From Hippea maritima DSM 10411 (GTDB lineage: Bacteria > Campylobacterota_A > Desulfurellia > Desulfurellales > Hippeaceae), in contig NC_015318.1 of the NCBI RefSeq assembly GCF_000194135.1, positions 1,308,501 through 1,372,500 on the forward strand: DNA of 64,000 nucleotides, given 5' to 3'. Numbering within the stretch: position 1 is the first letter of the stretch; each line of letters begins with the position of its first letter. The notes beneath the pieces are model-generated. The model ran no database searches. It saw nothing but the letters and a program-made list of their open reading frames with translations, and had not been told where the DNA came from. Shown here one piece after another: positions 28,128 through 60,755 of this stretch. A program made the position numbers and the translations under genes.

Positions 28128-28622
28128 TCAGGCATTCTTAATTCTTGAGCCAACCATTCTATAGAAAATCAAAATAAACAAACCTATAGTTATAAAACTA
28201 TCGGCAAGGTTAAAAGCTGGGTAATGATATCGATTTATGTGAAAATCAAGAAAATCAATAACATAACCCCTAAAAATCCTATCGTATAGATTGCCTAAAT
28301 CCCCCCCAGCTAAGAACGACAAACCCAAAATAAACAAAAAACTCCTGTCTTTACCAAATAAAACAAGATAAAAAATGACAACAAAAACAACTAAACTAAT
28401 ACCGCCTAAAAACAGAAAGCGCAAGTGCTCTGGCAGATGGGCAAAGATTCCAAATGCAACACCCGTGTTTCTTACATGAACTATATTGAAAAAACCATCT
28501 ATAACACCCACTCCACCATTAAGTGGAATATGTTTAGATATATATAACTTTGTAAAGTAATCAAACATAAAAAAAAGGAGTATCAAAGATACTCCTTTTA
28601 GCCCATGCTTACTTATTTTCAC
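28128..28622 (-). CDS. lspA: Lipoprotein signal peptidase (signal peptidase II)
   Basis: Aspartyl protease of the inner membrane that cleaves prolipoproteins before the lipid-modified cysteine. Four hydrophobic segments and the family motifs are present: FFNIVHVRNTGVAFG, GGDLGNLYDR followed by VIDF (catalytic Asp123), and FNLADS (catalytic Asp141). Length 164 is standard. It starts with a GTG overlapping the rplQ stop (GTGA). Codons 8-20, which encode the first membrane helix (VSLILLFFMF), are at the same time a strong intrinsic terminator, so lspA expression depends on read-through from the ribosomal operon. Confidence 0.95.
   Translation of the reverse strand: MKISKHGLKGVSLILLFFMFDYFTKLYISKHIPLNGGVGVIDGFFNIVHVRNTGVAFGIFAHLPEHLRFLFLGGISLVVFVVIFYLVLFGKDRSFLFILGLSFLAGGDLGNLYDRIFRGYVIDFLDFHINRYHYPAFNLADSFITIGLFILIFYRMVGSRIKNA
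28569..28599 (-). terminator. Intrinsic terminator of the alpha operon, inside lspA
   Basis: On the minus strand a perfect 12-bp stem (28588-28599 with 28573-28584) with a 3-nt loop is followed by a run of eight T (28576-28569, the first four shared with the stem). The stem's outer four pairs are A-T, flanking a GGAGTATC/GATACTCC core. It lies 20 nt after the rplQ stop, where the ribosomal operon would be expected to end, but inside the lspA reading frame. Confidence 0.85.
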
Positions 28623-28987
28623 TTATTTTCTTCCTCTACAAACTCAACAATGGAAACAGGTGCAGCATCACCCTTTCTAAAACCTAACTTAATCCTTCTT
28701 ACATATCCACCGTTTCTTGAAGCAAAGCGTGGAGCAAGATTGTCAAATAATTTTCTAACAGCCTTTTTATTGTTGTTCAACTTGGACAAAGCCCTTCTCC
28801 TTGAGCTTAAATTATCATTTTTGGCCATAGTCACAAGCTTGCTTATAAATCTAACAAGCTCCTTTGCCTTGGCATCTGTAGTTTTTATTCTCTCATTTTC
28901 AATGAGCGAGATAGCAAGGTTCCTTAAAAGATGCTTCCTCCTTTCGCCATCAATACTGAGCGTTTTATAACCCTTTCTATGCCTCAT
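28619..28987 (-). CDS. rplQ: 50S ribosomal protein L17
   Basis: Large-subunit protein near the exit tunnel. MRHRKGYKTLSIDGERRKHLLRNLAISL in shortened form (MRHRKGY...RRHLLRNLA) is the family start; RRKALSKLNN-type basic sequence follows. 122 residues, usual for bacterial L17. Last gene of the alpha operon proper; it overlaps the rpoA end by 11 nt and lspA by 4 nt. Confidence 0.97.
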   Translation of the reverse strand: MRHRKGYKTLSIDGERRKHLLRNLAISLIENERIKTTDAKAKELVRFISKLVTMAKNDNLSSRRRALSKLNNNKKAVRKLFDNLAPRFASRNGGYVRRIKLGFRKGDAAPVSIVEFVEEENK

Positions 28988-43358: not shown

Positions 43359-44559
43359 TCTTACTCCAATATCTCCGTTATTACACCAGCACCAACTGTC
43401 TTGCCACCTTCCCTGATAGCAAAGCGTGTCTCTTTTTCTAAAGCAACAGGTGCAATGAGTTCAACTGTAAGTTCTACATTATCTCCTGGCATAACCATTT
43501 CAACGCCTTCTGGTAGGTGGACTGTTCCTGTAACATCTGTCGTTCTTATGTAAAACTGAGGTCTGTAACCCTCAAAGAATGGAGTATGTCTTCCACCTTC
43601 ATCTTTGGTGAGAACATAGACCTGAGCTTTAAACTTCTTGTGAGGTGTGATGGAACCAGGTTTGGCTAAAACCATTCCTCTTTCAACTTCCTCTTTTTTG
43701 ATACCCCTTAGAAGAACTCCAACGTTATCACCAGCTATTGCCTCATCAAGAATCTTTCTGAACATCTCAAGGGATGTAGCAACGGTCTTCCTTGTCTCAC
43801 CGAAGCCTACTATCTCTATCTCCTCACCAGGCTTTAGAACACCTCTTTCAACCCTACCTGTAACAACAGTTCCTCTTCCTGAGATGGAGAAGATATCCTC
43901 TATTGGCATCAAGAACGGTTTATCTGCCTCTCTCTGTGGTGTTGGAATATATTCATCAACTGCATCCATTAGCTCTTCGATAGCCTTCTTTGCCTCTGGG
44001 TCTCCCTCTAAAGCTTTAAGAGCAGAGCCTCTAATTACTGGAACATCATCACCTGGGAAGTCATATTTAGATAGAAGCTCTCTAACCTCCATCTCAACAA
44101 GATCAATAAGCTCTGGGTCGTCAACCATATCTGTTTTATTTAGGAATACTACGATGTATGGAACATTAACCTGCCTTGCAAGAAGTATATGCTCTCTTGT
44201 CTGTGGCATTGGACCATCTGCTGCAGAAACAACAAGTATAGCACCATCCATCTGGGCAGCACCTGTAATCATGTTCTTGATGTAGTCAGCATGCCCTGGG
44301 CAGTCAACGTGAGCGTAATGTCTTTTATCTGTTTCATACTCAACGTGAGCTGTGTTGATTGTAACACCTCTTTCCCTTTCCTCTGGTGCATTATCAATTT
44401 CGTTGTAGTCCTTAAACTCTGCTTTACCCTTCTCTGCAAGAACCTTTGTGATAGCTGCAGTTAGAGTAGTCTTACCATGGTCAACGTGTCCAATAGTACC
44501 GATGTTAACATGGGGTTTTGAGCGGACATATTTTTCTTTTGCCATAAGAGCCTCCTTAA
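43359..44559 (-). repeat. tuf duplication, copy A (about 1.2 kb)
   Basis: This stretch and 59470-60670 appear identical by eye, offset by 16,111 bases. The identity starts 2 bases after the tuf stop and ends just past the ribosome-binding site, so it covers the gene with almost no flank, as expected where gene conversion maintains two coding copies. Confidence 0.9.
43361..44545 (-). CDS. tuf: Elongation factor Tu, copy in the str operon
   Basis: GTPase that carries aminoacyl-tRNA to the ribosome. G-motifs: [10 protein letters not shown] (P-loop), DCPGHADY (switch II), NKTD, and SALK. The middle and last beta-barrel domains follow ([27 protein letters not shown]). 394 residues, the same protein as the second copy at 59472. 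It lies between fusA (10 nt) and rpsJ (13 nt). Confidence 0.98.
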
Positions 44560-56217: not shown

Positions 56218-56252
56218 AAAAAAAAAGGAAAGAGACATAAGCCTCTTTCCTT
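56218..56252 (-). terminator. Intrinsic terminator/attenuator between rplL and rpoB
   Basis: On the minus strand a perfect 10-bp stem AAGGAAAGAG/CTCTTTCCTT (56243-56252 with 56225-56234), an 8-nt loop, then an unbroken run of nine T (56226-56218). It is the strongest terminator form in the window. Partial termination at the same place is known in E. coli, where it lowers rpoBC expression relative to rplJL. Confidence 0.9.
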
Positions 56253-59469: not shown

Positions 59470-60670
59470 TCTTACTCCAATATCTCCGTTATTACACCAG
59501 CACCAACTGTCTTGCCACCTTCCCTGATAGCAAAGCGTGTCTCTTTTTCTAAAGCAACAGGTGCAATGAGTTCAACTGTAAGTTCTACATTATCTCCTGG
59601 CATAACCATTTCAACGCCTTCTGGTAGGTGGACTGTTCCTGTAACATCTGTCGTTCTTATGTAAAACTGAGGTCTGTAACCCTCAAAGAATGGAGTATGT
59701 CTTCCACCTTCATCTTTGGTGAGAACATAGACCTGAGCTTTAAACTTCTTGTGAGGTGTGATGGAACCAGGTTTGGCTAAAACCATTCCTCTTTCAACTT
59801 CCTCTTTTTTGATACCCCTTAGAAGAACTCCAACGTTATCACCAGCTATTGCCTCATCAAGAATCTTTCTGAACATCTCAAGGGATGTAGCAACGGTCTT
59901 CCTTGTCTCACCGAAGCCTACTATCTCTATCTCCTCACCAGGCTTTAGAACACCTCTTTCAACCCTACCTGTAACAACAGTTCCTCTTCCTGAGATGGAG
60001 AAGATATCCTCTATTGGCATCAAGAACGGTTTATCTGCCTCTCTCTGTGGTGTTGGAATATATTCATCAACTGCATCCATTAGCTCTTCGATAGCCTTCT
60101 TTGCCTCTGGGTCTCCCTCTAAAGCTTTAAGAGCAGAGCCTCTAATTACTGGAACATCATCACCTGGGAAGTCATATTTAGATAGAAGCTCTCTAACCTC
60201 CATCTCAACAAGATCAATAAGCTCTGGGTCGTCAACCATATCTGTTTTATTTAGGAATACTACGATGTATGGAACATTAACCTGCCTTGCAAGAAGTATA
60301 TGCTCTCTTGTCTGTGGCATTGGACCATCTGCTGCAGAAACAACAAGTATAGCACCATCCATCTGGGCAGCACCTGTAATCATGTTCTTGATGTAGTCAG
60401 CATGCCCTGGGCAGTCAACGTGAGCGTAATGTCTTTTATCTGTTTCATACTCAACGTGAGCTGTGTTGATTGTAACACCTCTTTCCCTTTCCTCTGGTGC
60501 ATTATCAATTTCGTTGTAGTCCTTAAACTCTGCTTTACCCTTCTCTGCAAGAACCTTTGTGATAGCTGCAGTTAGAGTAGTCTTACCATGGTCAACGTGT
60601 CCAATAGTACCGATGTTAACATGGGGTTTTGAGCGGACATATTTTTCTTTTGCCATAAGAGCCTCCTTAA
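59470..60670 (-). repeat. tuf duplication, copy B (about 1.2 kb)
   Basis: Second member of the repeat at 43359-44559. The sequences diverge at once outside these limits: rpmG-side sequence after the stop and tRNA-side sequence before the ribosome-binding site. Confidence 0.9.
59472..60656 (-). CDS. tuf: Elongation factor Tu, copy in the tRNA-tuf operon
   Basis: Protein identical to the 394-residue EF-Tu at 43361. An open frame extends 11 codons further upstream, but the ATG at 60656 has the same GGAGG-containing ribosome-binding site as the other copy and matches the family start [14 protein letters not shown]. It is the protein gene behind four tRNAs (Thr, Tyr, Gly, Thr), the same order as the E. 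coli tufB operon. Confidence 0.98.
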
Positions 60671-60679
60671 AAAAACTTA

Positions 60680-60755
<76 letters not shown>

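Follow-up and report, generated by a model that had tools for sequence, protein, structure and literature searches.

A conserved hairpin within the transmembrane helix 1 codons of lspA is a putative partial transcription terminator behind the ribosomal protein genes of Hippea maritima and its order

In Hippea maritima DSM 10411, the lspA gene that follows the ribosomal protein (r-protein) genes carries near its 5′ end a hairpin and a run of eight uridines (U8), which probably act as a partial Rho-independent terminator that holds lspA expression low, the same bases also encoding transmembrane helix 1 of the enzyme. We analyzed this element in a window of 64,000 nucleotides (NC_015318.1, positions 1,308,501 to 1,372,500) and in related genomes. 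Conservation of the hairpin and U8, constraint at the codon level, and the lineage distribution were observed in the sequences. We infer that transcription stops at the hairpin, that this stop is partial, and that its purpose is a low ratio of LspA to ribosomes. The terminator would end most transcripts of the rpoA-rplQ operon about 50 nt past the rplQ stop codon, and a minority of RNA polymerases would pass into lspA. It would thus be a fixed attenuator, with r-protein mRNA abundant and lspA mRNA scarce. There would be no space for it outside the gene, since only a few bases separate the lspA start from the rplQ stop; the terminator would be written in helix 1 codons because rplQ and lspA touch.

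The lspA gene (28128 to 28622, minus strand, as are all features below) begins with GTG and encodes a signal peptidase II of 164 amino acids. It lies behind rplQ (28619 to 28987), which family models identify as the gene for ribosomal protein L17 and whose transcript is presumably ended by the hairpin. The two genes overlap by the four bases GTGA, which hold the rplQ stop TGA (28621 to 28619) and the lspA start GTG (28622 to 28620). The lspA frame matched Peptidase_A8 (PF01252, E = 4e-37), scored 105.6 bits against TIGR00077 (cut-off, 73.95), and contained both LspA motif regions, GNLYDR and FNLADS. At the level of sequence, the frame carrying the hairpin is confirmed as LspA, and this is the only lspA copy in the H. 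maritima genome (one contig, 1,694,430 bases). In alignment to solved LspA chains, the block encoded by the hairpin fell immediately N-terminal to the conserved aspartate with which the D-x-x-[TS]-K stretch begins, and the block can be assigned to LspA transmembrane helix 1. An earlier note on this DNA had likewise placed the hairpin in frame within the first transmembrane segment; that placement holds, with the stretch better given as GVSLILLFF than as VSLILLFF. The same note had argued that lspA has no promoter in between and must be expressed from read-through transcripts. A scan from the rplQ start as far as the hairpin gave no promoter-like match, so expression by read-through of rplQ transcripts is plausible. 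No other terminator was detected between rplQ and lspA, nor any strong terminator 3′ of lspA.

On the minus strand, positions 28599 to 28573 (AAAAGGAGTATC-TTT-GATACTCCTTTT) form a fully paired 12-bp stem closed by a loop of 3 nt, and the T8 run follows at 28576 to 28569, as had been described from the letters of this stretch. The first four T's of the run double as the partners in the outer four A-U pairs (AAAA/UUUU in H. maritima). This 12-bp version (28573 to 28599) was complete in H. maritima and two congeners, and its outer A-U pairs were partial in a fourth genome; only the inner 8 bp and U8 were conserved. The core hairpin (GGAGUAUC-UUU-GAUACUCC, 28577 to 28595) reads in frame as Gly-Val-Ser-Leu-Ile-Leu, and the U8 tract (28569 to 28576) lies inside the codons CTT TTT TTT (Leu-Phe-Phe). 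Together they form the element GGAGUAUC-UUU-GAUACUCC-UUUUUUUU (28595 to 28569), which begins 27 nt 3′ of the first base of GTG and spans lspA codons 10 to 18 (GGA GTA TCT TTG ATA CTC CTT TTT TTT = GVSLILLFF). None of 200 dinucleotide shuffles was equally stable (z = −4.8). Intrinsic terminators have a stem that contains G-C pairs, spans 5 bp or more, and is capped by a short loop (here, 8 to 12 bp and 3 nt), and a U tract right behind it (here, U8 in 19/19 genomes of the order). A bidirectional terminator that also serves the convergent gene was rejected, as the plus-strand tail is just T4 and scored −12.

Terminators were ranked by a score of the d'Aubenton Carafa type, with values above 25 taken as strong, over 464 kb of H. 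maritima (the window plus 20 further stretches). Twelve sites exceeded 25, of which 11 were intergenic and the lspA hairpin was the sole intragenic one. A second apparent intragenic site (L160:6332) proved to be intergenic once an over-extended ORF start was taken into account. Within the window, the only other strong terminator was that between rplL and rpoB. Across the 464-kb sample, strong intrinsic terminators were sparse and nearly confined to the small noncoding fraction, and because they are so sparse, the count suggests that most H. maritima operons end by another mechanism. Runs of T8 alone are common in this AT-rich genome (17 sense runs of T8 or longer in 414 kb of ORFs); T8 is informative only through its joint conservation with the stem.

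Of 61 genomes searched for LspA, 56 gave a match. The order is represented by 19 of these, namely, nine in the genus (H. maritima included), seven more in the family, and three in a second, Desulfurella-like family; we inferred the genus and family labels of the relatives. The core hairpin and U8 were present at identical lspA codons in all 19, with terminator scores of 26 to 41. Whether relatives keep both hairpin and helix had been set beforehand as a test of the proposal, and every genome of the order passed it. The pattern GGAG-N11-CTCC-T7 was likewise found in lspA of 19/19 order genomes but in none (0/6) of the class members outside the order, which belong to two other families; a phylum-wide search led to the same 25 genomes. 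Extra copies were limited to one elsewhere in one order genome and one at a contig end in another, and the reversed pattern gave no matches. One such extra site, in a Desulfurella-like genome (G018:C18:548599-548624), differs in arm sequence. Because the six hairpin-less class genomes still have lspA directly behind rplQ, the arrangement of the two genes predates the hairpin. The hairpin was apparently acquired by the common ancestor of the order; the alternative is that the other families lost it. Among 54 LspA genes from other lineages, none scored as a terminator near its 5′ end, and their helix 1 sequences were diverse.

In a codon alignment of the 19 lspA genes, 45 columns had one amino acid and more than one possible codon; just five of these used a single codon throughout (GGA, CTC, CTT, TTT, and TTT), and all five lie within the nine-codon hairpin block (hypergeometric p = 1.7e-5, uncorrected for relatedness). 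Codons flanking the block on either side varied freely, and invariant residues outside it used several codons; invariant Phe columns elsewhere in LspA had 3 to 6 TTC among 19. These observations bear on the possibility that GVSLILLFF is simply required in helix 1 and that the codons used for it happen to form a hairpin. The peptide is indeed nearly invariant in the order; however, only about 6e-4 of its encodings yield the hairpin plus T8 (probability per independent sequence, given the peptide and the codon usage of the remaining lspA), the hairpin occurs in 19/19 order genomes, and the helix 1 sequences of other bacteria differ, which leaves this account scarcely credible. In the stem, all 152 pair cells in the 19 genomes (152/152) were standard pairs. 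Four pairs are invariant and hence uninformative, another three differ among genomes on one side, and one varies on both: in the three Desulfurella-like sequences, the sixth pair changes from A-U to G-C through a silent GTA-to-GTG change and an ATA-to-ACA/ACG change that replaces Ile with Thr, a polar residue inside a membrane helix. The remaining stem changes leave G-U pairs, and the covariation is modest (2/500 shuffles reached the observed statistic). The same bases thus appear to be selected twice, once as an RNA hairpin with its U tract and once as the hydrophobic peptide GVSLILLFF.

Selection on an RNA structure is also what would be expected if the hairpin acted on translation or RNA stability, either limiting re-initiation at lspA or protecting rplQ mRNA at its 3′ end after processing. 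The conserved stem, with its one compensatory change, is compatible with such a role, and in bacteria mRNA structure that follows a stop codon restricts re-initiation (PMC7518266). However, such structures are depleted at gene overlaps or at gaps below about 25 nt, as found at rplQ-lspA (PMC7518266), and neither role needs the invariant U8, which is a requirement of a terminator; we consider this reading improbable. A hairpin next to a homopolymer is also a known arrangement for transcriptional slippage, which on U8 would give shifted lspA mRNAs. Slippage is nonetheless highly improbable here, as the zero frame already codes for full LspA and the shifted frames run to at most 39 codons, with neither length nor sequence conserved. 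Transcriptional slippage as a field is the subject of a review (PMC5009743).

Two alternative starts for LspA were considered and set aside. A start 3′ of the hairpin would use an ATG after U8 that is limited to some species (the matching codon in relatives is ATA, ATT, ATC, GTG, GCT, or ACC) and would delete helix 1. An internal TTG start, with the GGAG of the hairpin as its ribosome-binding site, is unlikely; the codon is CTG in 4/19 genomes, and its G is already accounted for by the closing C-G pair.

The position of the hairpin relative to the two genes was compared with measurements in Escherichia coli. There, a terminator gains its full strength at about 27 to 30 nt beyond the stop codon, and one placed 30 bp downstream of an AUG functions without ribosomal repression, because so soon after initiation a ribosome will probably not have reached the polymerase (PMC4824070). 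Across relatives, the core stem lies 22 to 37 nt past the rplQ stop, near or beyond the E. coli maximum, and 21 to 33 nt past the lspA start. The lspA leader codons between start and hairpin (28600 to 28622) are conserved across relatives in length and not in sequence. By the E. coli yardstick, the hairpin appears to be placed to end rplQ transcripts despite translation of either gene.

The same geometry bears on a translation-controlled terminator, in which a ribosome re-initiating at the rplQ/lspA junction close behind RNA polymerase would melt the stem; lspA transcription would then rise with tight coupling and fall when ribosomes lag. Translation does suppress intrinsic terminators late in genes or right after stops (PMC4824070), and in every relative having both genes the lspA start adjoins or overlaps the rplQ stop. 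However, just 7 to 11 codons are available to a ribosome ahead of the stem, a distance at which the E. coli terminator 30 bp after AUG was not suppressed (PMC4824070). In the 19 genomes, lspA has a weak ribosome-binding site (−6 to +1 kcal/mol) that all but disappears in the Desulfurella-like family, and there is no conserved leader sequence able to delay RNA polymerase. For comparison, the r-protein gene ribosome-binding sites tested ranged from −8.7 to −12.7 kcal/mol, those of rpoA, rpoB, and map being weaker. We therefore regard translation control as unlikely. The earlier suggestion that ribosomes starting at the GTGA overlap unfold the stem fares poorly for these reasons, and also because the overlap itself is not conserved (measured from the end of the rplQ stop, the lspA start lies between 8 nt upstream and 10 nt downstream in relatives); the contrary tests of this geometry come from a different organism, E. 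coli (PMC4824070). A related scheme, in which the few ribosomes starting lspA in time would rescue their own transcript, ended transcripts would become non-stop mRNA for tmRNA, and LspA would track ribosome traffic on the r-protein operon as a coupling sensor, is decidedly unlikely.

The rplQ codons for GDAA, which precede the lspA hairpin by about 65 nt, contain the sequence GAUGCU. In several congeners, this sequence can pair with the 5′ arm, and there the pairing beats most shuffles. Such pairing might compete with the hairpin while rplQ is untranslated. An antiterminator built from these codons and the 5′ arm was not favored, the pairing being inconsistent in other genera and the partner being fixed by the L17 motif.

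With a fixed partial terminator as the preferred reading, the predicted stabilities are of interest. The core stem was calculated at −9.4 kcal/mol at 37°C and −5.7 kcal/mol at 54°C; at 54°C, the 12-bp form of H. maritima reaches −8.7 kcal/mol and the rplL-rpoB hairpin −9.7 kcal/mol. The growth optimum of H. maritima MH2 is 52 to 54°C (PMC3156395). The short core stem and its predicted loss of stability at 54°C fit leaky termination, and termination at the core stem could be weak. Terminated mRNA would contain the start of lspA but lack its stop codon, at some cost to the cell. The H. maritima genome has a tmRNA gene, and the weak lspA ribosome-binding site may limit futile starts on terminated mRNA.

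A second element of the window offers a comparison within this lineage. The rplL-rpoB attenuator is a well-known device in E. coli. In H. maritima, the rplL-rpoB intergenic hairpin with T9 lies at 56218 to 56250 and is kept across the class: a hairpin was present at 24/24 available junctions in four families, with changing stem sequences and scores of 2 to 50, weakest in the most distant family. At both loci, an intrinsic terminator stands between an r-protein gene and a same-strand downstream gene with no other between, would set apart r-protein genes, whose products are abundant, from a gene of the same operon that is needed less, and has the hairpin plus T8-9 design common to both in these genomes. 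This likeness suggests that the lspA element parallels the role of the rplL-rpoB attenuator. Unlike the lspA element, which occupies codons 10 to 18, the rplL-rpoB hairpin lies outside coding sequence, in an intergenic gap of 77 to 214 nt before rpoB.

Other known systems share parts of this arrangement. In E. coli rpmH-rnpA, partial terminators may lie near the rnpA start. As proposed for lspA, a gene expressed at a low level would then stand behind an r-protein gene, with transcription partly ended early in it; we know of no order-wide codon conservation for those terminators. The E. coli ampC gene has a leader attenuator. In E. coli pyrBI, a terminator lies inside a leader reading frame (PMC4824070). 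The lspA element resembles these two leader attenuators in the closeness of terminator to translation start but differs in that its frame encodes LspA itself, a membrane enzyme that is essential, rather than a dispensable leader, and in having no visible conserved leader or pause element. The engineered coding-region terminator W48 of E. coli, 30 bp after AUG, works and yields non-stop mRNA; unlike the natural, conserved lspA element, it is a synthetic construct in a small dispensable frame (PMC4824070). In Methanococcus maripaludis, internal terminators in r-protein and RNA polymerase operons similarly give unequal levels inside r-protein operons, but this termination is archaeal and was mapped to intergenic regions, not codons (PMC10450193).

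Operon-internal attenuators, and early-coding-sequence terminators that work in constructs, are already known. The open-licence papers searched described no natural terminator that is kept throughout an order and shares its bases with the codons for a transmembrane helix of an essential enzyme. Intragenic terminators are usually dismissed as chance, and the putative one in lspA is conserved across an entire order. Simultaneous selection on protein and RNA would nearly fix nine residues of a helix that is variable in other bacteria. The locus thus offers a natural test of whether terminators within the first 100 bases of a gene work, of how cells handle the implied non-stop mRNA, and of operon-internal control constraining protein sequence, with the rplL-rpoB hairpin as a ready comparison for attenuation in this lineage. 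Elsewhere in the window, two long ORFs of similar size, 43361 to 44545 and 59472 to 60689 (both minus strand), share an identical stretch that resembles a hairpin (TTGAGGGTTACAGACCTCAG plus tail); they are probably two near-identical tuf genes.
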